Assembly: GCA_016458225.1 (NCBI GenBank)
Contig: JAEMGR010000003.1
Span: 868,001 to 932,000, forward strand
DNA: 64,000 bases
Origin: Myxococcaceae bacterium JPH2
Lineage (GTDB): Bacteria; Myxococcota; Myxococcia; Myxococcales; Myxococcaceae
Reading direction: 5' to 3'
Position numbers and translations under genes: made by a program. Positions within the stretch are counted from its first letter, which is position 1; the number at the start of each line of letters is the position of its first letter. Positions 19,355-61,268 of the stretch are shown here, piece by piece. Under the pieces are notes generated by a model, which saw only the letters and a program-made list of their open reading frames with translations, was not told where the DNA came from and ran no database searches.

Positions 19355-19380
19355 CGCTCTGTCTTTGGATCCGGAGGCGC

Positions 19381-34327: not shown

Positions 34328-34895
34328 GATGTCGACTCCTCCGGCCCCCCTACCACGTGGCACGGTGCGCCACTGGGTGGCGCTCGGTCTCCGGGGTGAA
34401 ACGCGAGCGGTGTCCCCATGGCCCCGGGAAGCTGTGCTTCTTTCCAGGCGATTGGGCTGCTCTTGAACTGTTTCAACGGACTGAGCGCCAATCCTTGAGG
34501 CCACCGAGTGTGTGGGCCTCCAAGGGTGGACCCAAGGGCCATGCGACACACCCGCTTTGCGGGCCTTGGTGGGTGGAGGCTAGGCCCACGCGACACACCC
34601 ACGTGTTGTCGGGGACCCAGTTTGGTCGGCTCGGGTGTGGGCCTGTCATGGGTAGAGCCAGGGTCGCGATTCCCTCCCGCGCGCAGGCCTTGCGTGGCGC
34701 ATCGCGGAGTTGGCTGAGAGATGGGCCCAAGAGGCGCGCGCCCTCCCCTCGCGCCGCGTGTCGCCGAGCCACGGCCCGTGCACCGCGCCCGCAGGCGGGC
34801 CGTACATCGTGGACCTACGGGGTGGGCGCATGCACCGCGGCTCATGGCCTGAGTCGTCACGAGGCACACGGCGCGAGCTTCACCCTCGCGCGAGT
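34328..34895. other. gene-free stretch with short repeated GCGACACACCC segments
   Basis: About 570 bases without a convincing gene. GCGACACACCC occurs twice (about 34547-34557 and 34592-34602), each next to GGGCC/GGCCC blocks that could pair (for example GTGTGGGCC near 34510 with GGCCCACGCGACACAC). These look like decayed repeats or hairpins. It presumably also contains the promoter of the MshEN gene. Confidence 0.35.
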
Positions 34896-34929
34896 GAGAG
34901 ACCGGGGAACGTGAGCGCCCCGGTCTCTC
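34896..34929 (-). terminator. intrinsic terminator of sppA
   Basis: A perfect 12-bp stem, GAGAGACCGGGG at 34896-34907 with CCCCGGTCTCTC at 34918-34929, and a 10-base loop. It begins 11 bases beyond the sppA stop on the minus strand. Confidence 0.82.
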
Positions 34930-34939
34930 GTGCTGCGCA

Positions 34940-36733
34940 CTACCAGCGGATCGCGGGCGGCGGCGCGTAGAGCGCGCTCGAGCGCGCGTTGCCTCGCGTC
35001 AGTCCCAACTGCTCACCGAGCTGGTACACGGCGCGAGCCTGCTCCATCACGGGCGCCCAGGTCGCGGCGCGCGCGGTGACGTCGTCCTCGCTGTTGTCTC
35101 CGTTGCGCTCACCGAACAGCTCGGCGAGGACCTGCGCGGTCGGCTTGGGACGCGGGAACTCCTCGATGTTGATGGGCGCATCCTTGGGCAGCTTCGCGGC
35201 CTCCTTCGCCAGCTCGATGGCCTTCGCATATCCGCCCAGCGCATCCACCAGGCCCCGCGTCGATGCGTCCTCGCCGGTCCACACGCGGCCGCGGGCCACG
35301 TCGCGCAGCTTCTCCACGGGGAGCTTCCGTCCAGCGGCGGCGCGCGCGGTGAAGTCGGCGTAGATCTGATCCAACGAGTTCTCGAAGCGCTGCTTCTCCT
35401 CGGGCGTGAAGTCCGAGTCGGAGCTGTACATGTTCGCGTTGCGGCCCTGGCTGACGGCGTCGAAGTTCACGCCGAGCCTCGCCCAGAAGTCCGCCGTCAC
35501 GAACTTGCCGCTGTACACGCCGATGCTGCCCGTCAGCGTGCCGGGCTGCGCGACGATCTTGTCCGCGTCCATGGACACGAAGTACCCGCCGCTGGCCGCA
35601 TAGGTGCCCATGGTGACGATGACGGGCTTGCCCGCCTCGCGAGCGCGCTGCACTTCGCGGCGCACGGTGTCGCTGGCCACGTAGCTGCCTCCGGGGCTGT
35701 CCACGCGGAAGAGGATCGCCTTCACGCGCGGATCCTCCACTGCCTTGCGGAACGCCGAGGCCACGCTGTCACCGCCCATCGCCTGTCCACCGCTGAGCGG
35801 ATTGGACTGGCTCTTGCCGCGCACCAGCTCGCCCACGCCGTAGATGAGCGCGAGGGTGTCGCCGCGCGTATGCGGCCGCCCCGCGCGCTCCAGATACTTG
35901 TCCGCGTAGAGGAGCTGAGCGCCCTCCCCGGCCTGCTTCTTCAGGTCGTCGTAGACCTCGTCCCGGTAGCGCAGACCGTCCACGAGCTTGGCCTCCAGCG
36001 CCTCCTTGCCGAAGTACGGCGCGTGGTCGATGAGGTCGCGCACCTGGGCCTCGGTCATCTTCCGGCCCTCGGCGACGCCGCGGACAATCTGTCCGTAGAG
36101 GCTGCTGGTGAAGCCATCGGTGGCCTCGCGGTGGGGCGCGGTGTAGTCCTGCTCCGTGTAGGTATCGACGGCGTTCTTGTACTCGGCGCGCTTGCTGAAG
36201 CGCGGCACCACGCCGAACTTCGCGAAGGCGTCGCGCGCGAAAGGCGTCTCGATGGAGATGCCCGTCAGCGCCACGTCGCCCGAGGGCTGGATGTAGATTT
36301 CGTCGAAGGCGCTGGCCAGGTAGTACGCGCCGGTTCCGTTCCCGGACTCGCCCAGGCTGTCCGCGTAGGCCACGGCGCGCTTGCCCTTGGCCCGGAAGGC
36401 CTGGACCGCGTCGCGCAGCTCCTGCGCCTGGGCCGCGCTGCCGGGCGAGCCCACGCGCGCCACCACCGACTTCACCCGAGGGTCACTGCCCGCCTTCTCC
36501 AGTGCCTCCACCACGTCCCGCACGGTGGTGGGCCGCTTGCCGAAGGCTCCCGCGAAGGACTCGTCGAGCACGTGCTCGGGCAGGGGCTGGTCCAGGTCCA
36601 GTTCCAGGACGAGGTTGGAGGGGACGCTCGGCTTGCTGGAGGACGCGAGCACCAGCAGTCCCACGATGCCGATGAAGAAGAGAATGGACAGCGCGCCGAT
36701 GCAGGCGAGCGCGCCGATGAAGAAGCGTTTCAT
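34940..36733 (-). CDS. sppA: signal peptide peptidase SppA (long, 67K type)
   Basis: A 597-residue membrane-anchored serine protease that cleaves leftover signal peptides. One N-terminal membrane helix (IGALSILFFIGIVGLLVLAS) is followed by two tandem SppA domains, as in the E. coli enzyme. The general base Lys is Lys186 in SKRAEYKNAVD (first domain) and the nucleophile is Ser381 in GTYAASGGYFV (second domain), so the dyad is split between the domains in the expected way. The ATG at 36733 is clear. The gene stands alone with its own terminator. Confidence 0.95.
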   Translation of the reverse strand: MKRFFIGALACIGALSILFFIGIVGLLVLASSSKPSVPSNLVLELDLDQPLPEHVLDESFAGAFGKRPTTVRDVVEALEKAGSDPRVKSVVARVGSPGSAAQAQELRDAVQAFRAKGKRAVAYADSLGESGNGTGAYYLASAFDEIYIQPSGDVALTGISIETPFARDAFAKFGVVPRFSKRAEYKNAVDTYTEQDYTAPHREATDGFTSSLYGQIVRGVAEGRKMTEAQVRDLIDHAPYFGKEALEAKLVDGLRYRDEVYDDLKKQAGEGAQLLYADKYLERAGRPHTRGDTLALIYGVGELVRGKSQSNPLSGGQAMGGDSVASAFRKAVEDPRVKAILFRVDSPGGSYVASDTVRREVQRAREAGKPVIVTMGTYAASGGYFVSMDADKIVAQPGTLTGSIGVYSGKFVTADFWARLGVNFDAVSQGRNANMYSSDSDFTPEEKQRFENSLDQIYADFTARAAAGRKLPVEKLRDVARGRVWTGEDASTRGLVDALGGYAKAIELAKEAAKLPKDAPINIEEFPRPKPTAQVLAELFGERNGDNSEDDVTARAATWAPVMEQARAVYQLGEQLGLTRGNARSSALYAPPPAIRW

Positions 36734-36923
36734 CCGGAAGGACTCCTGGTGCCCGAGTATCCGAGGGAAGACCCCGGCAGGCGGTGCTTACTACTAACGC
36801 GCCTGAGCGACGATGCTTGCCATGCGGGGTGCGCCGCGGATGTCGTGTGGCAACAGGGGCGGGTCCAGCTTGCCCGCCCTCCCGCGGAGCGCGGGCTGTC
36901 TCTGCGGGAGAGGGGCCGGACGC

Positions 36924-37568
36924 TCAGGCGTTTGCGAGTTCTTCGATGCGCAAGGCGTGGGCGTTCAGGCGAATCTCGAGTTCATCCTGCGTCTCGGCGA
37001 ACTTCACGATGACGCGATGGAGGTTCTTCAGTTGCCACGTGTACTGGGTCTTGAATTGAGAGACCTCTTTCACGAGCTTGTCCAACTCCGTGACGACCAT
37101 GGACTGCGTCTGGTTCACGCCTGTCACGGACCGCTCCAGGATGGAAATCTGGAGGCTCAGTCGATCGACAGACCGATCCACGAGGATGAGGCGCTCCTCG
37201 ACCTTCGTCATCCGCACTTCCACGAGGATGAGGCGCTCCTCGACTCTTGCCATCCTGACTTCGAGGTCCGCGAGCCGCTGCGCGACGTTTGCCATCCTGA
37301 CTTCGAGGTCCGCGAGCCGCTGCGCGACGTTTGCCATCCTGACTTCGAGGTCTGTGAGCCTCCTTTCGATATCAGTGAGACGGTATTCGACCGCTTCGAG
37401 CCTCCGATCGATCCGTGCGATGTCTTGTTTGAGTTCCGCGACCCCCTGCTCAAGTCGTGTGAAGCGCTGCTCCGTTCGCTCGTGATGCGCCGATACCTGC
37501 TGCCGGAAGTCTCGGAACTCGTGCAGCAGCACCTGCATCACATCCCCGCCCACCATCTCCATGACCAT
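36924..37568 (-). CDS. coiled-coil protein built of 14-residue repeats
   Basis: A 214-residue, almost entirely helical protein. Residues about 45-135 consist of heptad-pair repeats, each 14 residues (RLADLEVRMANVAQ and variants RLTDLEVRMANVAQ, RLILVEVRMTKVEE), at DNA level a 42-bp tandem repeat in 37200-37370. It resembles the DUF-type coiled-coil proteins near phage or Uma2-rich loci, but has no membrane segment. The start has AGGAGGAGGA upstream; ATG 37568 or ATG 37562 are both possible. Its cellular partner is unknown. Repeat number is likely to vary between strains. Confidence 0.75.
   Translation of the reverse strand: MVMEMVGGDVMQVLLHEFRDFRQQVSAHHERTEQRFTRLEQGVAELKQDIARIDRRLEAVEYRLTDIERRLTDLEVRMANVAQRLADLEVRMANVAQRLADLEVRMARVEERLILVEVRMTKVEERLILVDRSVDRLSLQISILERSVTGVNQTQSMVVTELDKLVKEVSQFKTQYTWQLKNLHRVIVKFAETQDELEIRLNAHALRIEELANA
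37200..37370 (-). repeat. 42-bp tandem coding repeat
   Basis: Units with the shared core CCATCCTGACTTCGAGGTC occur at about 37249, 37293 and 37335, the first two intervals being near 42 bases. A related pair at 37184-37247 contains CACGAGGATGAGGCGCTCCT twice. It lies inside the coiled-coil gene and keeps frame. Confidence 0.75.
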
Positions 37569-45934: not shown

Positions 45935-46027
45935 TGTGGACAACGTGTGGGCAACTCTGGGGACAGAGAGTCCATGAATGATTCCAGCGGTTTAGGGACC
46001 GCTTGGACAGGGAGACGCTGTGGATAA
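45935..46027 (-). promoter_or_regulatory. DnaA-box cluster between mnmG and rsmG
   Basis: Three same-orientation boxes, read on the minus strand: TTGTCCACA (45935-45943), TTGCCCACA (45946-45954) and a perfect TTATCCACA (46019-46027). The perfect box covers the rsmG start codon. The spacing of the first two is 11 bases. This could regulate rsmG, titrate DnaA, or be an auxiliary or alternative origin element. Function is inference. Confidence 0.5.
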
Positions 46028-46670
46028 CGCGCGGTTCTCAGATCAGCTCGCGGTGGGATGCCGAGCCTTGGGCGTGTCGGTGGGGGAGGACGTGGGGCCT
46101 CGGCTGTTCCGGCTGATGGGCGAGCTCCTCAAGTGGAACGCCAAGGTGAACCTCACGGCCATCACCGCGCCGGACGAGGTGCTGGAGAAGCACTTCCTGG
46201 ACTCGCTCGCGGTGCTGCCCGAGGTGACGGGGGCGACCTCGTTGTTGGACCTGGGCGCGGGCGCGGGCTTCCCGGGGTTGCCGTTGCGAGTGACCTTGCC
46301 GACCTTGGGCGTGACGTTGGTGGACGCGGTGGGGAAGAAGGTCGCGTTCATCAAGGCGGCCTCGGCGACATTGGGGTTGGGCGTGCGGGGACTGCACGCG
46401 CGCGCGGAGGGCAAGCCCGAGGCGGAGGGGATTCCCCGCGCGCAGGTCCTGATTGCGCGAGCGTTCATGGACTTGCCGGACTGGTTGGCGCTCGCGCCCG
46501 CGTATGTGGAGCCGGGAGGTCGCGTGGTGGCGATGCTCGGCAAGGCGCAGACGGACGCGGAGCTGGCGGCGCGCGCGGCGGAGCGGAACCTGAAGGTGGT
46601 GTCGGCGCGGGCCTATCGGCTCCCGTTCTCCGGAGCGGAGCGGCAGGTGGCGGTGTTCGCGAAGGAGTAG
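46020..46670 (+). CDS. rsmG: 16S rRNA (guanine527-N7)-methyltransferase RsmG (GidB)
   Basis: A 216-residue SAM-dependent methyltransferase that makes m7G527 in 16S rRNA. The RsmG N-terminal helices (LFRLMGELLKWNAKVNLTAI, then EVLEKHFLDSLAVL) precede the SAM motif SLLDLGAGAGFPGLPL. VTLVDAVGKKVAFIKAAS and IARAFMDLPDWLAL complete the family pattern. The start is GTG 46020, which lies inside a perfect DnaA box (TGTGGATAA at 46019-46027). A terminator hairpin follows at 46683-46704. Between mnmG and the parS zone, it marks the left border of the origin-proximal segregation locus. Confidence 0.95.
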   Translation: MDNARFSDQLAVGCRALGVSVGEDVGPRLFRLMGELLKWNAKVNLTAITAPDEVLEKHFLDSLAVLPEVTGATSLLDLGAGAGFPGLPLRVTLPTLGVTLVDAVGKKVAFIKAASATLGLGVRGLHARAEGKPEAEGIPRAQVLIARAFMDLPDWLALAPAYVEPGGRVVAMLGKAQTDAELAARAAERNLKVVSARAYRLPFSGAERQVAVFAKE

Positions 46671-46704: not shown

Positions 46705-46824
46705 CGCTCCAATCTGTTGGAGTTCCGTTGGTCCCTTGCGGCGATGCGTCCACGCCGCGAGCCGAGCCCGATACCCTCCGCGCGAGCCATCCATGGCGCC
46801 GCGGAGGCGCGACGGGAGTCGACG

Positions 46825-47217
46825 GTGGAGCACTTCAAGCTGCGGGTCGCGAGGCCGACGCGAGACCTGGACGCGGTGGTTCGCTTCTACGAGGGAGCGC
46901 TGGGCTTCTCGCTCCTGGGAGGCTTTCGGGACCACGAGGGCTTCGACGGGGTGATGCTCGGGCACTCGGGAGCGCCGTACCACCTGGAGTTCACGGTGGA
47001 GCACGGCCACGAGGCGCCGCGCTCACCCTCCGAGGACAACCTGCTGATCTTCTACGTCCCGGACCGAGCGCAGTGGGATGCGTGGGTCGCGAAGGTGGAA
47101 GCCGCGGGACACCGAGCCGTGGTGTCGCGGAATCCCTACTGGGACGCGGGGGGGAAGACCTTCGAGGATCCAGATGGCTACCGCGTGGTGCTCTACCAAG
47201 GAGACTGGAAGCGCTGA
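46825..47217 (+). CDS. VOC-family (glyoxalase-like) protein
   Basis: A 130-residue protein with the VOC fold. It begins HFKLRVARPTRDLDAVVRFY (metal-ligand His near residue 3) and has GAPYHLEFTVEHGHEAPRS (His/Glu candidate ligands) and KTFEDPDGYRVVLYQGDW at the end. GTG 46825 is chosen since GGGAG lies upstream and the fold starts there; an in-frame ATG at 46717 would read through the region after the rsmG terminator. This is the last credible gene before the 11.4-kb gene-free parS zone. Confidence 0.83.
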   Translation: MEHFKLRVARPTRDLDAVVRFYEGALGFSLLGGFRDHEGFDGVMLGHSGAPYHLEFTVEHGHEAPRSPSEDNLLIFYVPDRAQWDAWVAKVEAAGHRAVVSRNPYWDAGGKTFEDPDGYRVVLYQGDWKR

Positions 47218-50197
47218 CGCAAGGCCGCGGAACGCGCGAGCCGCGAGCGGATGCCCGTGAAGTGCGATGAGGGCGCTCCTCCCGAGTCCTTCGCCCGCGA
47301 CGTGGGCACGAAGGTCGAAGCGGGAGTTGATCCGCTCCGACGGAGCAACGTGACCCGGCGATAGCGCGGACGTCTTCGCATGAAGACGTGGTCCGTCGAG
47401 GCACGCGTACGAAGTCATCTGTCAGCCGCGCTTCGAGAAGTCGGGTCCGTTCCTGACTCGGACGTGGTCTGCGCGTGGCAGAGGGCACCTCAATCCCGAA
47501 GGTCCAGCGCCAGTGATGTCTCAGCGGTTCGAGTCGCCGAGCGCATCGGCTCCGCGCGTGGAACCTCTCCATGGGGCATCGGCTGACGAGGACTCATCGC
47601 CAACAAGGATGGCCGGTCAGCGGCAACTGATCCGCAGGCAGGAGCAGGCCGCGCTTCCATCCACAGGTTCGCAAGAGTCCTCGGAGAGGAGGGCTGACGG
47701 ACTGAGAGGCGCGAGCACGACTGAAGCGCGCAGCGACATCGAGGGCATCGAAGTGTGTCGCCGTTCGACATCCCCAGAACGGGGGAGGGCGGGTTCTCGG
47801 AAGGGGAGGGGAGGGGACACCAGGTGCTGAAGAGGCGAACTCCCCAGGCCACCACCGACCGGTGCCAGCCGAGACACGACCGCATCGCGGCTCAGCGGAT
47901 TCACGGCGCGGAGCCCCGCTCGATTCACAGGAGGGCATGCCCGAGCCTGCCTCACTCCAGGCTCATCACCGCGAGCCCCTGGAGCCCTTCCTCAGTCCAG
48001 GTGGAAGAGGCGCGCTCGGAGCATCGGCGCGTCAGGAGCCGATGCTCTGAGCCGCGCCACGCTGAGCCCAGCCCACCATGTCGCGCTTGCGCCATTCGGA
48101 CCTCAATCATCCCTGAGGAATGACGACCTGGGAGTGGAGCGACAGGGCGCGCACGAGAGTCATCAGCACCCAGCGAGACTGCTCACGCGATGCTCGCTGT
48201 CAGCGTCTCCGTTCGGATCCATGGGGTGGCGACGCGGCCCATGCACGTTCCACAGGGAACCCACATGAGCGCTCGGAGTCAGTCACGGTTGGCCGCCTCC
48301 CGAATGCGATGAGGAGACTGTGAGGTCGACACGCGAACCCTCATCGCAGTGACCGACCGCAGCCGAACGGCGCCACTTCGGTTCCCCATGGAACGCGTCG
48401 CAGTCCCGCCAGTCTCGGCAGAGTGAATCGCGCCAGCCGCAACTCAGGTCTGGGTGGGCGATCCCAGGTTCTCGAACCATCCGTCGAGAGCGCGAGGGGT
48501 CCATCCGTCGAATGCAGACCGTCAGCCCGAAGGTGCGGATGCGAGTGTCTCGTGCCTGAGCCACTCAAGCATCAGGCCCGCATCACCACCGAGTCCTCAG
48601 CCGCCAAGCAGCTTCTCGACACGACCCCCATGTTTCGCGACGCGAGCGCATCCGGCGGAGTCGTTGCACATGCGCCGAGGATGGGGACCTGCAGTCGTGC
48701 TGCGCTGTGCACATTGGGGACGCCACGCCACGGCGGCACGTGGATGAAGGCAAGGCCGAGGAGACTGCTCCGAGAGCCATGCCTCATGGCGCTCGAAGCG
48801 ACGCGGACGAGGCCGATGAGGAACAGCCCGAAGCACATCCATCACAGCCCTGTTGGGGACCGGCGATGCCCCATGGACTGCACCGCCAGGGACAGGTTCC
48901 GACGGGATGCGAAGCCTTCCAATCTGCGCTCACCCGCGAGGGGCGTGACACCGCATCGGATGTGCCGTGCCCATGACGCCCAGCGAGTAGCGAGGTGGAT
49001 GGACGTCATGCACGCCACCATGCCGAGCCGATGCTCCGCGAGAGCGGCGGATGACGCCGAGCTTCATCACAGGCGAGCTCGCGCAATCACCCGGCCGGTT
49101 CAGGCCATGTGCCGCTGACATGAGCAGCAAGTCGCCGCCGGGTTCGCAGCAGCCCGAGCCTGCGCGAGGCAGTGCGCAAGTCGTCGATGCGGTTCCACAC
49201 GGAACGCCGCGAAGCGCGCAGCGACTTCGTGGCCCAAGGGAAGTCAGCAGCGTCAGAGACGGACTCAGGACCGGAGCGCGACGCCTCTCCAGCAGGTGAC
49301 GTCGATGGACTCGGAGGTGCGCTGCATCCGGTCCGAAGAGTCGTTCCCCTGGAGTGCGGAGGCTCACCCGCGGACCCCATGATGAACCGAAGTGAGGCAG
49401 CACTTGGGTGCCACCGTGACCAGCAAGGCATGCAGGGCACCGATGCCTGAAGTGCGGTGACACCGAACCCGAAGCGCAGGAACGGAGCGCCTCTGCGTCG
49501 CGAGGACGACAGGCCAGTCCTCACCACCCAATCCGCGCAGGGCAACGACATGGATGGCCTTCCACACGGGGCAACGCTGTGCCCAAGACGCTGATGCGTG
49601 CGAGTCGCCGAGACCTGCTCCGGCTTCGACGACATGACGGGTGAAGTTGGTAGGCCACGTCGTGGCACCGAACCCGCCCGAAGCAGTGCCCACGAATGCG
49701 GCTCGACCTGGACCATGGCTGCTGACCTACGAGCCCTGTGATGAACCGAAGTGAGTCAGGTCTCGAGTTTCATCATGGCCAATCCGGCCATCTTCGTTCC
49801 CCCATGAGCCATGGCCCTGACGCCTGGAGGAGTGGGCGCTGGTTCCCAAGTCAAAGCGTGAGCCAGAGTTCTTCGGCTCGATGAGGTGGGCGTGCCCGGT
49901 CACACCATTGGACCGCACGAAGCAACGGCTCATGGGTGCCAAGCGATGGTGCACCGTGGAGCCGATGAGTGGCCCGCGTGGCGGGCTGACGAGAGTCGGG
50001 TCGCAGGTCCACAGGGTGGTCCGTGAGCCTGACCATCGCTCCAGTTGGACCCGTGGTGAGCGCCTCGCCCGATGCTTGTCGAACGACGAGGCCCGCCGAG
50101 TTCGAAGCGGACGGATGGGGAAGCCACCTCGCTGCGCGGTGCGCTCGGCATGCCCGGTCATGCACCGGACTCGCGCGGAGCAACACCGCTCGGAGCC
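47218..50197. other. left part of the gene-free segregation zone, with decayed parS-like sites
   Basis: About 3 kb without a credible gene: open frames are short, Arg/Ser-rich, and the third-position G/C bias of the neighbours is absent. Three 14-mers are two mismatches from GTTCCACGTGGAAC: GTTCCACAGGGAAC (48247-48260), GTTCCCCATGGAAC (48381-48394) and GTTCCACACGGAAC (49192-49205). The phrase GAACCGAAGTGAG occurs at 49386 and 49745 and resembles text between the good parS sites. This looks like an eroded older part of the parS array. Confidence 0.6.
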
Positions 50198-50211
50198 GTT
50201 CCACGTGGAAC
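50198..50211. promoter_or_regulatory. parS site 1 (perfect)
   Basis: Exact GTTCCACGTGGAAC. Leftmost perfect copy; a decayed partner (GTTCGAGATGGAAC) lies 86 bases to the right at 50284-50297. Confidence 0.92.
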
Positions 50212-50447
50212 ACGACGGTCCATCCGTGCGCCTGAGTTGAGCGGGCTCACCGGTCCGATGGGTGGCTGATGAGGCCCGCCTTCGTTCGAGATGGAACCGT
50301 GCCCGACGCATCACCTCGATGCTTCATGGTGGGTGATGCGTGTTCCGGATCCGGGGCCGAAAGCTGGTGAGCGAGAGGCGCTGCTTTGTGGGCCTCACGT
50401 GCCCGGACTCGCTACCAAGCCTGCACGAAGCAGTGACTCACGAAGCC

Positions 50448-50461
50448 GTTCCACGTGGAAC
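50448..50461. promoter_or_regulatory. parS site 2 (perfect)
   Basis: Exact 14-mer, first-type context (ACGGAGGCTC follows). Next site 86 bases on. Confidence 0.92.
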
Positions 50462-50533
50462 ACGGAGGCTCACCAACGAGCCCGAGGTGACTCGGTTCGT
50501 GGAGGCGCTGCGCGGTCAGCGAGGTTCGTCAGC

Positions 50534-50547
50534 GTTCCACGTGGAAC
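50534..50547. promoter_or_regulatory. parS site 3 (perfect)
   Basis: Exact 14-mer, second-type context (followed by AGCACTGAGG). Confidence 0.92.
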
Positions 50548-50683
50548 AGCACTGAGGCGCGGATTGAGCGCGAGCCTCCAACGACCGTGGGATGGATCCA
50601 GCTCCCTGCAAGGGTCGTCGAGACCTGTTCCGTCCATCCCTGCAGCGAGGCTTGGCTGAGCCACGAGACAGGCCCGAAGTGCT

Positions 50684-50697
50684 GCTCCACGTGGAAC
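50684..50697. promoter_or_regulatory. parS site 4 (one mismatch)
   Basis: GCTCCACGTGGAAC; second base changed. First-type context (GAAGTGCT before). Confidence 0.85.
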
Positions 50698-50770
50698 CCG
50701 GAAGTGCATCCACGAGCCCCGAAGTGAGTTCGTTCTCCATTCCAACGGGGTCGCCGATGAGGCCATCCAC

Positions 50771-50784
50771 GTTCCACGTGGAAC
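50771..50784. promoter_or_regulatory. parS site 5 (perfect)
   Basis: Exact 14-mer after GATGAGGCCATCCAC, followed by AGCGCTGAGC (second type). Confidence 0.92.
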
Positions 50785-50920
50785 AGCGCTGAGCAGGTGT
50801 CAGCGCGAAGCACGAACAAGGGTGAGAGTTGGATCCGAAGCCGTGGAAGGGGCGGGGAGCGTCTCGCCATCCAACGTGACCGAGTGGCTCAGGCCGTCCT
50901 CAACCTGTGCTCGAACTGCT

Positions 50921-50934
50921 GTTCCACGTGGAAC
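50921..50934. promoter_or_regulatory. parS site 6 (perfect)
   Basis: Exact 14-mer, followed by ACGGAAGCCCATCC (first type). Confidence 0.92.
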
Positions 50935-51006
50935 ACGGAAGCCCATCCACACGCCCGAACGGCGGCTGGTCGTCGGTCCTTTGCAAGGTCGATGAGGCCC
51001 GTCGGT

Positions 51007-51020
51007 GTTCCACGTGGAAC
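51007..51020. promoter_or_regulatory. parS site 7 (perfect)
   Basis: Exact 14-mer after GATGAGGCCCGTCGGT. The next expected site (about 51158) is missing; only a remnant, GTGAAGCACGAAG, is visible there. Confidence 0.92.
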
Positions 51021-51243
51021 AGCCCATTCACATCGCCCCAGCGCTTGAAGGTCAGCGCACTGACCTCGGATCCGAAGCCAGAAGAGGTGGCGATGGACGG
51101 TTCGTCCGGGAGTGTTCCTGGGTTCGGATGGGTCGCGCGAGATGGGTGCGAACTGTCGAAACAGGTGAAGCACGAAGGCACATCGGCGAACCCCAAGTGG
51201 GTCCCTTCGCCGGTCAGTTCCATGGCCCGTGAGGCCCGTGCTT

Positions 51244-51257
51244 GTTCCACGTGGAAC
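51244..51257. promoter_or_regulatory. parS site 8 (perfect)
   Basis: Exact 14-mer, second type (followed by AGCGCCGCACGCATC), 237 bases after site 7, that is one full module. Confidence 0.92.
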
Positions 51258-51394
51258 AGCGCCGCACGCATCCCGCCGATGCTTGAAGTGCCGTGCACGG
51301 GCTCCGGATCCGCGGTCGAAGGACGCGGCAATCAGTGGCTGAGCGAAGTGCCGTCCCGCGGTTTCGAAGGGTCACGCGTTGAGGTCGAAGTGCT

Positions 51395-51408
51395 GTTCCA
51401 CGTGGAAG
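51395..51408. promoter_or_regulatory. parS site 9 (one mismatch, left end of the palindrome)
   Basis: GTTCCACGTGGAAG; last base changed. It forms the left end of the 192-bp palindrome and mirrors site 11. Confidence 0.87.
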
Positions 51409-51480
51409 AAACACGGGCCGCACTCTCCACGAAACCGACCGTCGAAGGGACCCACTTGGGGCTCGCGGATTCGGCTTCGT

Positions 51481-51494
51481 GTTCCACGTGGAAC
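51481..51494. promoter_or_regulatory. parS site 10 (perfect, centre of the palindrome)
   Basis: Exact 14-mer whose dyad (between 51487 and 51488) is the dyad of the whole 192-bp inverted repeat. Confidence 0.93.
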
Positions 51495-51566
51495 ACGAAG
51501 CCGAATCGGCGAGCCCCAAGTGGGTCCCTTCGACGGTCGGTTTCGTGGACTGTGCGGCCCGTGTTT

Positions 51567-51580
51567 GTTCCACGTGGAAC
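51567..51580. promoter_or_regulatory. parS site 11 (perfect)
   Basis: Exact 14-mer; second site of 238-bp copy 1 and right end of the palindrome. Confidence 0.93.
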
Positions 51581-51718
51581 AGCGCTGCGCGCATCACTCC
51601 GATGCTTGAAGTGCCCGTGCACCGGCTCCGGATCCGCGGTCGAAGGTTGCGGCAAGCGATGGCTGAGCGAAGTGCCGTCCCGCGGTTTCGAAGGGTCACG
51701 AGTTGAGGTCGAAGTGCT

Positions 51719-51732
51719 GTTCCACGTGGAAC
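51719..51732. promoter_or_regulatory. parS site 12 (perfect)
   Basis: Exact 14-mer; first site of 238-bp copy 2. Confidence 0.93.
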
Positions 51733-51804
51733 ACGAAGCCGAATCGGCGAGCCCCAAGTGGGTCCCTTCGACGGTCGGTTTCGTGGACTGTGCGGCCCGT
51801 GTTT

Positions 51805-51818
51805 GTTCCACGTGGAAC
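51805..51818. promoter_or_regulatory. parS site 13 (perfect)
   Basis: Exact 14-mer; second site of 238-bp copy 2. Confidence 0.93.
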
Positions 51819-51956
51819 AGCGCTGCGCGCATCACTCCGATGCTTGAAGTGCCCGTGCACCGGCTCCGGATCCGCGGTCGAAGGTTGCGGCAAGCGATGG
51901 CTGAGCGAAGTGCCGTCCCGCGGTTTCGAAGGGTCACGAGTTGAGGTCGAAGTGCT

Positions 51957-51970
51957 GTTCCACGTGGAAC
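51957..51970. promoter_or_regulatory. parS site 14 (perfect)
   Basis: Exact 14-mer; first site of 238-bp copy 3. Confidence 0.93.
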
Positions 51971-52042
51971 ACGAAGCCGAATCGGCGAGCCCCAAGTGGG
52001 TCCCTTCGACGGTCGGTTTCGTGGACTGTGCGGCCCGTGTTT

Positions 52043-52056
52043 GTTCCACGTGGAAC
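52043..52056. promoter_or_regulatory. parS site 15 (perfect)
   Basis: Exact 14-mer; second site of 238-bp copy 3. Confidence 0.93.
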
Positions 52057-52194
52057 AGCGCTGCGCGCATCACTCCGATGCTTGAAGTGCCCGTGCACCG
52101 GCTCCGGATCCGCGGTCGAAGGTTGCGGCAAGCGATGGCTGAGCGAAGTGCCGTCCCGCGGTTTCGAAGGGTCACGAGTTGAGGTCGAAGTGCT

Positions 52195-52208
52195 GTTCCA
52201 CGTGGAAC
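52195..52208. promoter_or_regulatory. parS site 16 (perfect)
   Basis: Exact 14-mer just after copy 3; sequence beyond it (ACGAAGACGCATC) belongs to a diverged module. Confidence 0.93.
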
Positions 52209-52269
52209 ACGAAGACGCATCAGCGAGACCGAAGTGAGCCCGTGCGCGGGACCGATGAGGCCTGCCGTT

Positions 52270-52283
52270 GTTCCACGTGGAAC
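52270..52283. promoter_or_regulatory. parS site 17 (perfect)
   Basis: Exact 14-mer after GATGAGGCCTGCCGTT; the short spacer here is 75 instead of 86. Confidence 0.92.
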
Positions 52284-52420
52284 AGCGCTGCCTGCGTCGC
52301 GCTGAGGATGGAGGGGCCTCACGCCGGCTCCGGATCCGTAGCCGAAGGAAGCAGTCAGCGGTGGGGTTGTGAAGTGCTGCCTCGCGGTTTCGGGGAGCCA
52401 CGAGTTGAGGTCGAAGCGCC

Positions 52421-52434
52421 GCACCACGTGGAAC
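52421..52434. promoter_or_regulatory. parS site 18 (two mismatches)
   Basis: GCACCACGTGGAAC; keeps the CCACGTGG core and the 151-base spacing from site 17. Confidence 0.75.
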
Positions 52435-52517
52435 ACGAAGACGCATCCATGGGCTCGCGATGGGCCGGATGTGAATTGGGTCTCGGCCTTGTTCGGCTGC
52501 TGGTGAGGCTCATCAAC

Positions 52518-52531
52518 GTTCCACGTGGAAC
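52518..52531. promoter_or_regulatory. parS site 19 (perfect)
   Basis: Exact 14-mer, second type (followed by AGCGCTGCGTGC). Confidence 0.92.
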
Positions 52532-52664
52532 AGCGCTGCGTGCATCACGTGGAGGGTTGATGGACCACGCGCCAGTCCTTGGAGCCGCGGCTGGGTGAGG
52601 AGGCCATCGACGGCTTCACCAGGGCTCGCGTTCTGCGGGGGCCGCGAGTTGAGGTCGAAGCGCC

Positions 52665-52678
52665 GTTCCACGTGGAAC
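52665..52678. promoter_or_regulatory. parS site 20 (perfect)
   Basis: Exact 14-mer, first type (followed by ACGAGGCGCATCGC). Confidence 0.92.
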
Positions 52679-52748
52679 ACGAGGCGCATCGCTGAACCGG
52701 AAGTGAGCCCGGTCGCGGAACCCGTGGGCGCCCATGAGGCCCGCGCTT

Positions 52749-52762
52749 GTTTCACGTGGAAC
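52749..52762. promoter_or_regulatory. parS site 21 (one mismatch)
   Basis: GTTTCACGTGGAAC; fourth base changed. Second-type context (GGCGCTGG follows). Confidence 0.85.
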
Positions 52763-52926
52763 GGCGCTGGGCGTGTCGCCCTGAGGGTTGAAGTGCCGCG
52801 CGGCCTCGGATCCTTGGCCGAGGGACGGGCCACCGATGACTTCAATGAGTGAGGCCGTTGGGCTCGTGGTGCGCCCGAAGTGCGTGGGGTCCCAACTGCG
52901 GTCCGGCGCCAGTGAGGACCGTCAGC

Positions 52927-52940
52927 GTTCCACGTGGAAC
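52927..52940. promoter_or_regulatory. parS site 22 (perfect)
   Basis: Exact 14-mer; rightmost perfect copy, after GTGAGGACCGTCAGC. Confidence 0.92.
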
Positions 52941-53442
52941 AGCGAAGAGGAGGTCTCGGCCTGAGGCTTGAAGTGACCGCGACGGAAGCCGAGGTCGAAG
53001 CCAAGGAGCCGAGGTCGATGGCGTCGGTGTGTCGCGAACTCGGCCGAGGTGATGTGGCGGAACGGAGGTCCTTCGTGAGCCATGGATGCGAGTGCACAGA
53101 CCTCGCGACGGGCCACCTGAGCTAGGTCGCACGTCCACGTGGATGACTGGTGCGGTCTGCTTCATTCCACCTGGAACCGTGCCAGTCGCACACCGGTCGG
53201 ATGCTTGAGGGCTGACCAAGCACTGGCCTCGAAGATCAACGGCGAGAGCATCCGCAGACCTGCGTGGATGAACCGAACACGCCCGAGAGGTCGTGGGCGA
53301 GCTGGATGAAAAGTGGCTCGAAGGTGGAGGCGCTCAGCCCCACTGAGTTCCACCTGGACCGGCGCAGGTCGTGCGCATGAGCGCGCGGTTGAGCAGGAGA
53401 GGTTGCGAGGTCCGTCATCCCGTGCGGAGCAATGCCGACGGA

Positions 53443-53456
53443 GTTCCACGTGAAAC
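53443..53456. promoter_or_regulatory. parS site 23 (one mismatch, isolated)
   Basis: GTTCCACGTGAAAC; eleventh base changed. It lies 516 bases past site 22, among weaker relics at 53132-53145, 53164-53177 and 53347-53360. Confidence 0.75.
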
Positions 53457-54941
53457 TCCAGGGACCGCCCACCGAGGTCTGGATGCGGGTGCTCGGTGAC
53501 GCGGCACGCTCAATCCATGAATCGTGAGCCTCGGTGTTCGGCCCGCGGACCATGCGCCGGAGTCGAGTCAGCGCATCGCGAACCGCTCGAACCTCAGGTG
53601 CTGTCAGTGACGGGCCCGCGCAGTGAGGCATCCTGGTCGCAGGACATGTCGAGTCACAGGGAGCCGCCCTGTTCGCCCCCGCGATGAATCCACGGTGACC
53701 GTCGTTGCTTCATGAGGAACGAGGGCCGCCGCGAATCCGCATCCGATGCGTCGCGTGGGTGCGGCGTCGCCATGGGCGGAACACGTGCTCGACCTCAGGC
53801 CAACCGGGGTGATGCGCATGGGTGGTCGACATCAACGGTCCAGTTGGAGCGCGTCTCACCTTCGCGGCGAAGTCGCCATGCAGGCAGGTGCCGGCCAGCA
53901 ACCCAAGGAAGGGGACGAGTGGCCTGGGCGAAGTGCCACCGTCTTCGGAGAAGTCGCCATGCAGGCAGTTGCTGGCCAGCAACCCAAGGAAGGGGACGCG
54001 TAGCCTGGGCGAAGTGCCACCGCCGGCTTCACGAGCGAGGCAGATGCTGTAGTCAGGCTTCGAGATGGACCCGCGAGGCTCTCGGTCGAGGGTCGTGAAG
54101 ACACGGTGCCGCCGCGACTCGTGGAGATGGAATACCAGGTGGTCGCCGCCTCGTGGCCCATGGACGCAGCAGTCCGGACCGATGGCTGGGCGGCGAATCC
54201 ACGCAAGACGCCGCGAAGGACATCGCGAGGGCACGAAGCGCCGAATGCGTCGCGGTGCGAGATGCCTGCTACTCCACGCTCGCGACACGCCGAAGCCGGA
54301 GGCAGGGACGTGTCGCGAGTGGAGCCGATGAGGCGAACGGCTTCATCGAAGGCGCAAAGTGCACGAGGTGCTGCATGGCTCATCGGACGGCTGCTCGGAC
54401 GGTCGCTGTGCTGACGTTGAGGATGAAGCCGAGCCTCACGAGTTGGTGTGCGAAGTAGGGCGACGAGATGAAGCTGAGCCCGCTGGCGAAGAGGGCTCCG
54501 CTGAAAGCACGCGGGGGACGAACGGGGTGGGGCGAGTGATGGCCAGGCTGCGCCTGACGCCGAAGCCAAGTCTCGGCGCGGAGTTGGTAGCGAAGTTGAG
54601 GCGCGAGGTGGGGCTCAGCCGCAGCTGAGTCGCAATCAGGGAACCATGCGGGACCGAGATGCTGCTGCACTCCGAACGGTCCGATGACGCGGGCTGAATG
54701 GTCCGGCCGCAGCGACAAGCAAAGGCATCGATCCCCCATGCTCACGCAAGAAACGAGGTCCTCGTTGCCTCCGCGATAGAGGCGAGCGTGTCGGAACGAT
54801 GCACTCAGCTCAAGGGCTGGTCGCGGCGCAAACTGGGCGGTCGGCGCAGCGGAGTGCTCAGCCCGGCCGCCCCGCTGCTGCGATGGATCCGAGTCCCTGT
54901 CCCGAGGGAGTCAGTGCAGTCATGCCGGCTGCGCAAGGTTC
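53457..54941. other. gene-free spacer between the parS cluster and the 127-bp satellite
   Basis: No credible gene. It contains an 81-bp direct duplication at 53869-54030 and scattered GAAGTG and GATGAGGC phrases like those in the parS modules, but no parS core beyond 53456. Confidence 0.5.
53869..54030 (+). repeat. 81-bp direct repeat, two copies
   Basis: Copies at 53869-53949 and 53950-54030 share GAAGTCGCCATGCAGGCAG at the start, and CCAGCAACCCAAGGAAGG and CTGGGCGAAGTGCCACCG inside, with a few substitutions. Confidence 0.85.
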
Positions 54942-56213
54942 GCGAGCGCGTTGGAGCGAAGCGCTCGGTTGGAAGTGCGAGGCACCGCTTCGAGCCGGCT
55001 CTGAAGACTGCGCTGACTGGCCGAACAGCGACTGACGATTCAGCCGCCCGGTATGACGCTGGCCGATGGTGGCGAGCACGTTGGAACAAAGCGCTTGGTT
55101 GGAAGTGCAAGGCACCGCTTCGAATCGGCTCCGCGAATCGCTCTGTCTGGCCGGACAGCGACCGACGATCCAGCCTCACGGGGCGCTGGCCAATGGTGGC
55201 GAGCGCGCTGGGGCGAAGCACTCGGCTGGAAGTGCGGGGCACCGCGTCGAACCGGCTCCGCGAATCGCCCTGTCTGGCCGGACAGCGACCGACGATCCAG
55301 CCTCACGGAGCGCTGGCCAATGGTGGCGAGCGCGCTGGGTCGAAGCACTCGGCTGGAAGTGCGGGGCACCGCTTCGAACCGGCTCCGCGAATCGCCCTGT
55401 CTGGCCGGACAGCGACCGACGATCCAGCCTCACGGAGCGCTGGCCAATGGTGGCGAGCGCGCTGGGTCGAAGCACTCGGCTGGAAGTGCGGGGCACCGCT
55501 TCGAACCGGCTCCGCGAATCGCCCTGTCTGGCCGGACAGCGACCGACGATCCAGCCTCACGGAGCGCTGGCCAATGGTGGCGAGCGCGCTGGGTCGAAGC
55601 ACTCGGCTGGAAGTGCGGGGCACCGCTTCGAACCGGCTCCGCGAATCGCCCTGTCTGGCCGGACAGCGACCGACGATCCAGCCTCACGGAGCGCTGGCCA
55701 ATGGTGGCGAGCGCGCTGGGTCGAAGCACTCGGCTGGAAGTGCGGGGCACCGCTTCGAACCGGCTCCGCGAATCGCCCTGTCTGGCCGGACAGCGACCGA
55801 CGATCCAGCCTCACGGAGCGCTGGCCAATGGTGGCGAGCGCGCTGGGTCGAAGCACTCGGCTGGAAGTGCGGGGCACCGCTTCGAACCGGCTCTGCAACC
55901 TGCGCCAGCTTGCCGGATAGCGACTGACGATTCAGTCGCTCGGAGGGCTGGCCCATGGCGGCGAGCGCACTGGGACGAAGCGCTTGGGTGGAAGGGCGGG
56001 GCACCACTTCGAACGGCTCTGCGAGTTGCTCTAGCTGCCCGCACAACGGCCGACGATTCGGCCGCTCGGAGCGCTGGCCAATGGCGGCGAGCGCGTTGGT
56101 ACGAAGCGCTCGGTTGGAAATGTGGGGCACAGCTTCGAACCGGCGCTGCAAACTGCGCTGACTGGCCGAACAACGACTGACGATTCAGCCGCACGGTGCG
56201 TTCGCGGAAGCGG
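54942..56213 (+). repeat. 127-bp satellite, ten tandem copies
   Basis: Units start (at GCGAGC) at 54942, 55072, 55199, 55326, 55453, 55580, 55707, 55834, 55960 and 56087. The four from 55326 to 55833 look identical; those at both edges diverge. Each unit has the near-palindrome CTGTCTGGCCGGACAG and a fold-back GAAGTGCGG...CCGCTTC. It is not related to the parS module. The frame stays open for long stretches because 127 is not a multiple of 3 and stops are rare; I do not regard that as coding. Confidence 0.92.
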
Positions 56214-58637
56214 CGAAGTCTTGCAGGCTTCGCGATGGTGCCGAGCGTGACGGAGTGATTGGTCAAGTGCATGACCCAGCACCTCTTCAAGTGCATGGCC
56301 CGGCACCATGCCGAGCTCGTGGACGCCGGAGGCTGTGCAAGGCCGGGAGTAATGCGGCAGATGATTGCGCCGAGGCGTGACGCTCACGGGGCCAGCGAAG
56401 TCATGTGCGCTGCGATGGTGCTGCGCGTGCCGGTCTGAGGGGCGCACGGAGGGAACGGCGGCGCTGTGCCGAGCTGCCTGCTGCGAGCCGTGTGCACGAA
56501 TCAGCTGCGGCGAGAGGGTGATTGCCGTCGAACGCTCGCGCCGACGCAGGCGATGATGTCCTAACCGGCCACGCACGGGTTCCAGGCGAATCGGAGCGCA
56601 GTACGCGGTTGGCGGCATGGCGGCGCTGCGAAGCGCGTGGCCCGAACCTGCTGACTGCGAGCCCAGTCACAACGCAGGTGATGACGGACGCGAGTCCCAC
56701 CGACCCACTCAAGCGCTGAACCAGGTGAGGCGTGATGAAGGGGAGCGTGCCGGAACGAAGTGCTCGGCTGGAGGTGTAGCGACACTGCGAGCCACGCTGG
56801 CGAATGTCGCTGGCTGCGCAGGGGGGCCGCACTTGAACTGCTGCGGGATCCACCCCCCCCGCGCCCACGCCGTTCGTGAAGTCCTGGCCGGGTGCGCGAT
56901 GGTCGCGAGCGCGTTGGAAGGACGCGCTTGGTCGAAGACCTGGCGAGACTGCGAGCCGCACGGACGGATGCTGCTGTTTGCGCTGCCGCGACTGAAGGAG
57001 ACGAGCCCTCAGGCGCCTGTAGCCGTGAGGTCGTGTCTGGGCGCACGACAGTCCTTCGCGATGGAACGAAGCGCTCAGCCGGAGGAGGTCGGGGCCGCTG
57101 GGAATGGGGTGGTTCAATACCGCGGAGCGCTCAGACCGCTCGCCCTCCGGGCTTGGCTCACTCCGACTGACGATGAGCCGGAACCGGCGCTTGCAATACC
57201 TGCACGCGCTTGTTTGCCGCGTGATGAGGCTGCGCGCGTTGAACGGAGCGCTCGGTTGATGGGCTGGTGGTTCACCCCATCGCGCCGACCGAAGTGGTGG
57301 GCTGCACAGCTCGGGCGCATCGTGACCGACGACTGTGTCGATCCCTTGTTCCCTCGTCACTCAGCGAGGGCTGGCTCGGTGGCTCGGAGGTGCTGTGCGT
57401 AGGGAGCCCAAGCGCTTGGGCGGCTGAATGGGGGGATAGGTGTCACTTCACGTTCAGAATCCTGAGCGCCCTCGGACGCTGGCCGCACTCAGCTCGTTTC
57501 GGGATGTGGCTGCGCCCCATGAATCACGGAGATACCAGCGTCGAGTGCGGATGCTCGACGGTGCCTCGTTTGTTGAAAGAGAGGACTCGGTTGATGCCGT
57601 GGATAGTGGCCGGCTCTCCTGCCTACTCGCATTGAGACCTCGCTCGCGTCGCGGCGTAGTTGAGCTTCTGCTCACTGGATTTGTCGGGAGCGTTTCGGTG
57701 CGATGCATCCGTGCGTGCTGATTGCTGTCTCGGAGGTGTTGATTGCACGCCTACGGGAAGCGCGTCGCTGCGAGCGCCGCACGTTGGGTGCCCCACGTCG
57801 GAGTTGAGGCCGGTGCGCGGTGGCTGTGGATGCTGTTGAGCGCTTGGACTCACTCGCCTCGGTGATGGAGGTGGCTGAGTTTCGCGCGTGTGTTGGAACG
57901 ACAGGCCCAGTCAGAACTTGGGTGTGGTCGCGCGGATCATCTGTCTATTCGTGGATGACGCGGCCCGAATTCTCCTTCGTGCGTGGCTTGTGCGCGTTCA
58001 CGGTGTGGCCTGAACTCCGTGCAGACGATGGCGCGGAGCTCCTCCGCCTGTGATGTGCTCGGACGATGTGGTGTTTGCCTGAGGGACGTCTGGGCTACGC
58101 GTGTCGATGACTCGTTTGCGGAGTGTCGGCGGGGGTGTCTTCGACACGGGGTTCGCTTTGGTCGTGGAACAGGGGCGCATTGTCTTGTGCTGCTTTGCCT
58201 ATCACCACGCTTGCGCGACTTCGGATCCAGCTGTTCATGGGTAGCTGACGACTGGTCGCGATGCGCAGTGCCTCGTTGAATCAGTCCACTTGTCTTCGTG
58301 GTTTGCTGACCGCGAGGCTTTGCCTTGCGAGTTGCTCACTCTCGCTCAGCCTGTGCTGCATTCAGGGCTCGACTTGGCGCAAGGCTTGAGTCGTTTCACT
58401 CCACGAAGGCGCGACCCTGATGGGCCGGACCTTGAATGCGCGAGGTTCACGGTCCACGCATGTCGAACAGAATGGGTTCCATTGCCGCGCCGCGATTCAT
58501 AGGCCGTGACGGAAGCTGCTTCGGAAGAACGATCCGCACCTGCCTGAGGAGGAGCGCGTCAACGGAATGGCAGACAGGCGGTCCTTGCGGGCTCGTGGAG
58601 CCGCTGCGCCCAATGGCCAACGTCGGACCGACCGCAC
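56214..58637. other. gene-free spacer with decayed satellite units
   Basis: About 2.4 kb with no credible gene. Faded relatives of the satellite phrase GGAACGAAGCGCTCGGTTGG occur near 56755, 56915, 57064 and 57240. From 57.4 kb on the composition is less GC-rich and has no visible structure. Confidence 0.5.
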
Positions 58638-59162
58638 ATGGTTTTGACATCCACGTGCCTCGCGGCTCTCGTGTGCGTTCTCCGCACGGAGCTTCGTCAT
58701 GACTCGGAAGGACATTTTCAGTCCGTGCAGCACTTCCTCGACGTGGTCGACGCGCGGACTTATTTCGAGGACCGTGAGCGAGCGCTGCGCGCGGCGCTGG
58801 ACCGTTTGGCGCTGGCCTCGCACTTCGCCGAGGCGCCGCCCGACGACACGGAGTATCCAGACGCGCCCGAGTCCGACTATCAGGCACTGCTCGGATCCAT
58901 CGCGCCACTCTTCCCCGGCCTCGGCCTCTACAACGCGGCCTTGAACATCGCGGACTCCGTGGGCGAGCCCTCACTCAGTACAGGCGATGCGCTCGACGAC
59001 CTCACGGACATCGCTCGGGACCTGCGCGACGTCCTCTTCTTCTGGGAGCACACGCGCGAAGAGAACGCGCTCTGGCACTTCCGCTTCGGCTTCGAGTCCC
59101 ATTGGGGACTGCACCTGCGCAGCTTGCAGCTCTACCTCCACGCGCGAGCCACCGGCCGCTGA
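58638..59162 (+). CDS. DUF5063-like protein
   Basis: A helical protein of up to 174 residues. The core (VQHFLDVVDARTYFEDRERA, then LRAALDRLALASHFAEAP, and DLRDVLFFWEHTREENALWH, HWGLHLRSLQLYLHAR) matches what I know of DUF5063 proteins, short cytoplasmic proteins of unknown role. The start is uncertain: ATG 58638 gives a Cys/Leu-rich leader that is not convincing, and GTG 58725 would begin just before the core. It is the first gene right of the parS zone and precedes parA by 314 bases. Confidence 0.7.
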   Translation: MVLTSTCLAALVCVLRTELRHDSEGHFQSVQHFLDVVDARTYFEDRERALRAALDRLALASHFAEAPPDDTEYPDAPESDYQALLGSIAPLFPGLGLYNAALNIADSVGEPSLSTGDALDDLTDIARDLRDVLFFWEHTREENALWHFRFGFESHWGLHLRSLQLYLHARATGR

Positions 59163-59476: not shown

Positions 59477-60280
59477 ATGGAGCACGTGGGTCGAATCATC
59501 TGCATCTCCAACCAGAAGGGCGGCGTGGGTAAGACCACCACCGCCATCAACCTCGCCGCGAGCCTGGCCTCCGCCGAGCGCCGCACGCTCCTGGTGGACA
59601 TGGACCCGCAGGGGAACGCGGGCAGCGGACTCGGCCTCAAGCGCGACGTGCTCCACGGCACCGTCTATGAGGCGCTCCTGAACGGCCGCCCCGCCGAGGA
59701 GCTGCTCCACGCCACCGAGCTGCGCTACCTCCAGGTCATCCCCGCGACGCCCGACCTCACCGGCGCCGAGGTCGAGCTGGTGAACCAGGAGGGCCGCGAG
59801 TTCCGCCTCCGCGAGGCGCTGCGCCCCCTCAAGGCCGCATACGACTACATCATCATCGACTGCCCGCCGTCGCTCGGCCTGCTCACCCTGAACGCGCTCA
59901 TCGCGGCGGACTCGGTGCTCATCCCCCTCCAGTGCGAGTACTACGCCCTCGAGGGCCTGTCGCAGCTGACGCACACCATCGACCTGGTGAAGCAGGGCCT
60001 CAACCCCGAGCTGAAGATGGAGGGCATCCTGCTCACCATGTTCGACTCGCGCGCGAACATCGCGCACCAGGTCGTCGAGGAAGTGCGGGGCTACTTCAAG
60101 GAGCAGGTGTTCGAGGTCCTCGTGCCGCGCAACGTGCGCCTGTCCGAGTGCCCGTCCTTCGGCAAGCCCATCATCCTGTACGACATCAAGTCGAAGGGCT
60201 GCGAGAGCTACCTGGCGCTCGGCCGGGAAATCATGCGCCGGGAGACGCCGCCCGCCGCGCCCAAGCGGCGCGTGGCCTGA
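59477..60280 (+). CDS. parA: chromosome partitioning ATPase ParA
   Basis: A 267-residue P-loop ATPase of the deviant Walker A class. NQKGGVGKTTTAINLAASLA near the N-terminus has the signature Lys (KGGVGKT, residues 14-20). VDMDPQGNAGSGLGL carries the switch I Asp, and DYIIIDCPPSLGLLTLNALI the Walker B. The end includes LVPRNVRLSECPSFGKPIIL. ParA dimers bind the nucleoid and pull ParB-parS complexes. ATG 59477 sits directly on GAGAGG; GTG 59486 (VGRIICISNQKG) has better ribosome-site spacing and may be the true start. parB follows after 100 bases. Confidence 0.96.
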   Translation: MEHVGRIICISNQKGGVGKTTTAINLAASLASAERRTLLVDMDPQGNAGSGLGLKRDVLHGTVYEALLNGRPAEELLHATELRYLQVIPATPDLTGAEVELVNQEGREFRLREALRPLKAAYDYIIIDCPPSLGLLTLNALIAADSVLIPLQCEYYALEGLSQLTHTIDLVKQGLNPELKMEGILLTMFDSRANIAHQVVEEVRGYFKEQVFEVLVPRNVRLSECPSFGKPIILYDIKSKGCESYLALGREIMRRETPPAAPKRRVA

Positions 60281-60380: not shown

Positions 60381-61268
60381 GTGGTGAATTCAGACAAGCA
60401 CAAGCGCGCGCTCGGGCGAGGCCTCTCCGCGCTCATTCCGCAGGCCGCTCCGGCCCCCGCGCCCGCGGCCGAGCCGCCTCCGCGCGCCGGCGTCCTCAAG
60501 CTGCCCATCGAGTCCATCCACCGCGACACCGAGCAGCCGCGCCGCCACTTCGACCCGACCAAGCTCACCGAGCTGACCGAGTCCATCAAGGCGCAGGGCC
60601 TGCTGCAGCCGGTGCTCGTGCGCAAGTCCGGGGATGGCTACAAGCTCATCGCCGGTGAGCGACGGTGGCGGGCCTCTCAGGCGGCCGGGCTGAAGGAGAT
60701 TCCGGCCATCGTCCGGGAGGTCACCGAGGTCCAGGCCTTCGAGCTGGCCCTGGTGGAGAACCTCCAGCGCGCGGACCTCAACCCGATTGAAGAGGCGGAC
60801 GGCTACAAGCGCCTCATCGACGAGTTCAAGCTCACGCAGGAGCAGGTGGCGCAGCGGGTGGGCAAGGAGCGCTCCACCGTGGCGAACGCGCTGCGGTTGC
60901 TCGCCCTGCCCGACGACGTGAAGGACATGGTGGCCGACGGCGCCCTCTCCATGGGCCATGCGCGCGCGCTGCTCGGCGTGCCTCGGCTGCCGGAGCTGCA
61001 GAACCTGGCGCGCCAGGTGACGGAGAAGAAGCTCTCCGTGCGCGACACGGAGAAGCTCGTCCAGCAGAACCGCTCGACGAAGAAGGACGCGGGAAAGCCG
61101 GCACCCAAGCAGAGTCCGCAGGTGCGCTCGCTCGTGGAGGAACTCCAGCGCAGATTGGGGACGAAGGTCCGCCTGTCGGAGAAAAGCCCAGGAAAAGGCA
61201 CCCTCGAAGTGGACTTCTTCTCCTACGATGACCTGGATCGTCTGTTGAAGATTCTCAGGAAGGAGTAG
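60381..61268 (+). CDS. parB: chromosome partitioning protein ParB (CTP-dependent clamp)
   Basis: A 295-residue parS-binding protein. The N-terminus RALGRGLSALIPQ is the ParA-contact motif. After a Pro/Ala linker, LPIESIHRDTEQPRRHFDPT and AGERRWRASQAAG (GERRxR motif, residues 92-97) form the CTP-binding fold. LVENLQRADLNPIEEADGYK leads into the helix-turn-helix LTQEQVAQRVGKERSTVANA that reads GTTCCACGTGGAAC. The C-terminal dimer domain ends DLDRLLKILRKE. The start is GTG 60381 (a second GTG follows directly). bacM begins 3 bases after its stop, so the two are one transcript. Confidence 0.97.
   Translation: MVNSDKHKRALGRGLSALIPQAAPAPAPAAEPPPRAGVLKLPIESIHRDTEQPRRHFDPTKLTELTESIKAQGLLQPVLVRKSGDGYKLIAGERRWRASQAAGLKEIPAIVREVTEVQAFELALVENLQRADLNPIEEADGYKRLIDEFKLTQEQVAQRVGKERSTVANALRLLALPDDVKDMVADGALSMGHARALLGVPRLPELQNLARQVTEKKLSVRDTEKLVQQNRSTKKDAGKPAPKQSPQVRSLVEELQRRLGTKVRLSEKSPGKGTLEVDFFSYDDLDRLLKILRKE

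Follow-up and report, generated by a model that had tools for sequence, protein, structure and literature searches.

In Myxococcus xanthus, 22-24 parS sites with the consensus TGTTCCACGTGGAACG lie within ~3 kb upstream of parA, and in vitro binding of ParB has been demonstrated for this cluster as well as for individual sites (Iniesta 2014, PMC3899335; Harms et al. 2013, PMC3778016). The excerpts of these accounts at hand give the number, position and orientation of the sites, and in those excerpts we found no mention of spacing, repeat units, lineage-specific periods or turnover (PMC3899335, PMC3778016). ParB is further described as a clamp that loads at parS and slides (PMC12462528). Among known regular ParB arrays, parS-F (sopC) of the F plasmid comes nearest, but it is plasmid-borne and built from short 43-bp units, whereas the array described here is chromosomal and made of longer units, which often hold several sites and vary from genus to genus. 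The literature searched, outside which most subscription journals lie, held no account of satellite-like chromosomal parS arrays. In eukaryotic centromeres, alpha-satellite forms tandem multi-monomer higher-order units with lineage-specific turnover, a young core and decaying edges.

The parS array and its gene-free surroundings

The window, i.e. the whole 64-kb stretch of DNA analysed here, contains 22 parS sites at 50198-53456, of which 18 match GTTCCACGTGGAAC exactly and four carry one mismatch; the site is the same as that of the M. xanthus cluster as given in the excerpts of PMC3899335 and PMC3778016. The same interval holds three degenerate sites with two mismatches and one with three (50284, in phase with the array), and the chance expectation for sites with at most three mismatches is ~2.7 in the entire 64 kb. 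The initial annotation had counted 23 ParB sites, which is close to the 22 or 25 obtained depending on the mismatch cut-off. Genome-wide, 22 of 22 sites with at most one mismatch sit in this one cluster, 6-9 kb upstream of parA, and the concentration of GTTCCACGTGGAAC copies near parAB together with the adjacency of parA and parB is that of a chromosomal ParABS parS cluster. This cluster is the chromosomal centromere of the bacterium, a member of the Myxococcaceae and relative of Myxococcus and Corallococcus. In gene order, gidA and gidB are followed by a glyoxalase-fold gene, a stretch of 11.4 kb lacking recognisable genes, a DUF5063 gene, parA and parB:

46020..46670, plus strand: gidB (rsmG), the left conserved neighbour, with a single-copy match in 91 of 96 family genomes
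46717..47217, plus strand: glyoxalase-fold (YycE-like) gene, left border of the gene-free region (Pfam PF22658/PF22659)
47246..58637, no strand: gene-free, fast-diverging centromere region of ~11.4 kb, with weak codon-position GC signal and no Rfam match
50198..53456, no strand: parS array of 18 exact, four one-mismatch and further degenerate sites, with A/B alternation at 86/150-152 bp
54942..56200, no strand: second tandem array, without parS and species-specific, 127 bp x 9.9, inside the gene-free region
58638..59162, plus strand: DUF5063 gene, right border of the gene-free region (Pfam PF16702, strong codon signal)
59477..60280, plus strand: parA (Pfam AAA_31)
60384..61268, plus strand: parB (Pfam ParB_N, HTH_ParB, ParB_C)

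Hidden genes or known RNAs in the gene-free region were considered and rejected based on the weak codon signal and the lack of an Rfam match; the open reading frames at 48423-49118 and 54698-55924 had no Pfam match.

The alternating two-site module

Among the 20 consecutive distances of at most 400 bp between sites, eight fall within 2 bp of 86 and six within 2 bp of 150, and the observed modal spacing count was reached by none of 500 random placements, documenting that the 86/151-bp alternation described in the initial annotation is real. The remaining distances are mostly sums or multiples (237, 248, 250) where a site has decayed, and some gaps are filled by dead sites that are still in phase (50284; 51158, a dead A site). 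Taken together, 86 and 150-152 bp make up a two-site module of ~237 bp. Similarity between the spacers of the window peaks at lag 2, corresponding to a two-site unit, and an 85-86/150-152-bp module is also present in G001, the other species of the window's genus examined; both observations support the proposal that the array grew by repetition of a dimeric module of ~237 bp. The two types of site, A and B, likewise exist, but their flanks are looser than had been stated: GAAGTGCT lies 5' of five of ~10 A sites, with variants such as GAACTGCT or GAAGCGCC at the others, and most B sites have AGCGCTG or a near variant 3'. Within the array, the following parts can be distinguished:

50448..51257, no strand: older diverged two-site modules, with A sites at 50448, 50684 and 50921 and B sites at 50534, 50771, 51007 and 51244, still in phase
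51386..51589, no strand: near-perfect palindrome of 204 bp, 94% complementary, without a loop and centred on the parS at 51481
51480..52236, no strand: youngest part, in which TRF finds a 238-bp two-site unit in 3.2 copies of 99% identity
52927..53456, no strand: decaying right edge, with one or two mismatches at 53164, 53347 and 53443

Because 51480-52236 holds 3.2 nearly identical copies, the regularity could in principle merely reflect very recent duplication of 99% identical units and be silent on the older history of the array. However, the phase reaches the diverged modules at 50448-51244 and 52195-52749 as well as the dead sites, and is therefore not confined to very recent copies; even in the decaying right edge, 52927 and 53164 are still 237 bp apart. 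The spacers of the older modules are near-random in register, with median identities of 0.41 and 0.35 versus 0.28 and 0.27 after shuffling. Moreover, the orthologous region of G001, which has the module, is 64-76% identical in most 300-bp windows. Because G001 shares the module, recent duplication as the sole explanation is already refuted, and we give it very little credence.

In the palindrome at 51386-51589, the 86-bp A-B interval is repeated in inverted orientation, and both ends of this copy fall within parS. The palindrome is alone in this among 1120 spacers, and frequent spacer inversion at palindromic parS was rejected on the basis of this single case. Long palindromes are usually unstable in bacteria, and this one may be real or an assembly artefact. 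We also considered that the shape of the entire array is an artefact of short-read repeat assembly, given that the window's genome is in 144 contigs and that short reads struggle with a 204-bp palindrome and near-identical copies; yet arrays of the same kind are present in single-contig genomes (e.g. G096, G104, G106, G070 and G080), and an artefact of this extent is extremely improbable. The palindrome and the number of 238-bp units may nevertheless be in error, and near-identical units may be miscounted in draft assemblies.

Spacing across genera: inheritance or constraint

We compared the gidB-to-parA region in 60 Myxococcaceae genomes, with orthologous regions found via gidB; genus g26 is Corallococcus, g23 was taken as Myxococcus by inference from its M. 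xanthus-like arrays, and arrays of one genus are not independent of each other. A parS cluster is present upstream of parA in nearly all 60 genomes, and 35 of 53 arrays show quasi-periodic spacing (P < 0.05). The period is about 105 bp in many Corallococcus genomes, 76-82, 92-97, 111-114 or 127-137 bp in clades of Myxococcus, 67-72 bp in parts of g16 and 27/97 bp in g8, with a range over all arrays of 27 to 168 bp. Spacing in related genomes is, thus, mostly quasi-periodic rather than random-like, but the 86/151-bp alternation itself was found solely in the window's genus. Period similarity drops with gidB distance (Mantel rho 0.37, P 0.0004), and the share of genome pairs whose modal spacings agree to within 4% is 90% among the closest pairs and 2% among the farthest. 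In two g8 arrays (L197 and L198), we observed the smallest repeated parS spacing, 26-28 bp start to start in alternation with ~95-104 bp, which may be near the limit of the ParB footprint.

The number of sites per repeated unit also varies, with one in L154 and L185 (lag 1), two in the window (lag 2) and three in L179 (lag 3, 77/81/78). Relatives of the 1120 spacers were found in the same array for 417 and in another genus for one. G001 has re-amplified different units of the module (169 bp x 3.1 and 237 bp x 2.3 copies). Sites with mismatches account for 35% at array edges versus 13% at the centre, and paralog matches improve toward the centre (P 8e-5), the correlation with centrality being positive in 34 of 43 arrays. 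All three hallmarks by which we defined satellite-like arrays, i.e. likeness within the array, multi-site units and a young core with decayed edges, were accordingly present. Some Myxococcus regions have stray one-mismatch sites far from the core. A candidate second conserved spacer motif (GGATCC and GAAGTG, frequent in the window's genus) was present in both species of that genus and was discarded, as it was not found across genera.

The initial annotation had left open whether the fixed spacing reflects how ParB loads, slides or bridges, or only ancestry. If 86 and 151 bp, or 105 bp in Corallococcus, were set by the ParB clamp footprint, by bridging or by SMC loading, selection would be expected to remove indels between sites. 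At first, such a constraint was suggested by spacers equal in length yet near-random in register: spacers of this kind hold 86 or 151 bp to within 1 bp for 71% and 67% of distinct intervals, and Corallococcus spacers hold ~105 bp with an in-register identity near 0.31 in the middle. Indel ratios, neutral simulation and a test for helical phase nevertheless speak against a constraint as a general rule. Of 17 independent genome pairs, only 5 had a smaller indel:substitution ratio between live parS than in the noncoding flanks (median ratio 1.30), and for the window and G001 the values were 0.075 between sites versus 0.087 in the flanks; relative to the flanks, indels were not depleted between sites. 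A pooled count of 0.091 indels per substitution in arrays versus 0.145 in flanks points the other way but is pseudo-replicated. Between orthologues, the distance from one parS to the next was altered at least as frequently as equal-identity control intervals, a weak comparison because conserved anchors are needed and BLAST breaks at long indels.

In simulations of neutral divergence matched to the observed similarity, using a star phylogeny and a single indel rate, r = 0.08 reproduced the scatter of the window (P 0.46 for A-B and P 0.30 for B-A intervals). At this value, 22 of 24 arrays fit the neutral model, the tighter ones being Corallococcus L172 (P 0.015) and Myxococcus L179 (P 0.045); at r = 0.16, six of 24 arrays were tighter than neutral, and the combined g1 86-bp class gave P 0.03. 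Helical phasing at 10-11 bp was tested modulo about 10.5 bp and rejected (z = 0.22 over 338 distinct genus-distance values). Because periods elsewhere are unrelated (27 to 168 bp) and without helical phase, indels are not depleted and the scatter in the window is that of neutral drift, we consider it unlikely that ParB or SMC geometry sets the distances, and ancestry is the better reading of the alternation. The claim that spacing is kept where spacers have diverged holds insofar as the older modules are in phase, but the distances themselves enjoy no special protection. Several unrelated arrays have a typical spacing of broadly 60-110 bp, a possible sign of a loosely preferred range, and the Corallococcus 105-bp arrays are the best candidates for a weak spacing constraint.

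Turnover and divergence of the centromere region

Judged from the sequences, it is highly probable that the array has grown by repeated tandem duplication in which the parS sites are selected, the spacing is inherited and turnover is satellite-like. Sequence comparison shows that blocks with one, two or three parS have duplicated in tandem, the block being the two-site unit of ~237 bp in the window. After duplication, the spacers drift apart in the manner of unconstrained DNA, edge sites die and new copies arise toward the middle, so that the array turns over like satellite DNA. Each parS would serve as an independent loading point at which ParB closes into a CTP-dependent clamp and slides away; with independent loading points, selection would be expected to keep many sites rather than the distances between them. 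As far as sequence can show, selection acts on the sites rather than on the distances, and the 86/151-bp alternation would be a fossil of the founding module, explaining this pattern without a new mechanism. Spacing that drifts under a constant site is a prediction of independent ParB clamp loading and sliding and speaks against models requiring parS sites to stand in a fixed geometry.

In most 300-bp windows, the alignable parts of the gene-free region share 64-76% identity with G001, and several windows are unalignable, whereas other weak-codon 300-bp windows of the stretch are mostly 81-99% identical. Fourfold-degenerate sites differ by 11.3% between the window and G001, and divergence of the gene-free region is 2-4x that of these sites. 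The noncoding parS region also outpaces fourfold sites in other genera (median ratio 2.3, 55 pairs). We do not describe this as faster than neutral because fourfold sites in G+C-rich conserved genes may be constrained.

On balance, we favour the view that chromosomal centromeres in the Myxococcaceae are regional, satellite-like and fast-evolving, occupy gene-free DNA of less than 1 to ~11 kb and carry their parS sites on lineage-specific higher-order repeats that are born in the core and die at the edges while ParB and its site do not change, with a loose spacing preference perhaps added in some lineages (Corallococcus, 105 bp). These arrays and alpha-satellite are alike in their multi-unit tandem repeats, their lineage-specific turnover, their young core with decaying edges and their fast-evolving, gene-poor surroundings, without homology in sequence or protein. 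Unlike alpha-satellite, the Myxococcaceae arrays have in each monomer a conserved 14-bp site that specifies the centromere, and they are a few kb long, whereas alpha-satellite extends over megabases. With a known binding protein and a known 14-bp site, as well as dozens of related genomes in which arrays have grown independently, they provide a bacterial counterpart of satellite centromeres that is amenable to study.

The 127-bp tandem array has, in 60 other regions, a 71% identical 119-bp piece in G001 as its sole trace; G001 carries a tandem array of its own (101 bp x 3.8; L144:7979-8360). The DUF5063 gene lies between the array and parA in the window and on the gidB side in several Myxococcus (L159, L162-L164); its position relative to the array, therefore, varies between genera. 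Outside the centromere, the weak-codon 300-bp window at 19201-19500 is an isolated variable spot (74% identical to G001). The segment at 34574-37189, in a neighbourhood otherwise >90% identical, is without a collinear counterpart in G001 and contains a signal-peptide-peptidase-like gene (Peptidase_S49; 34940-36733, minus strand).
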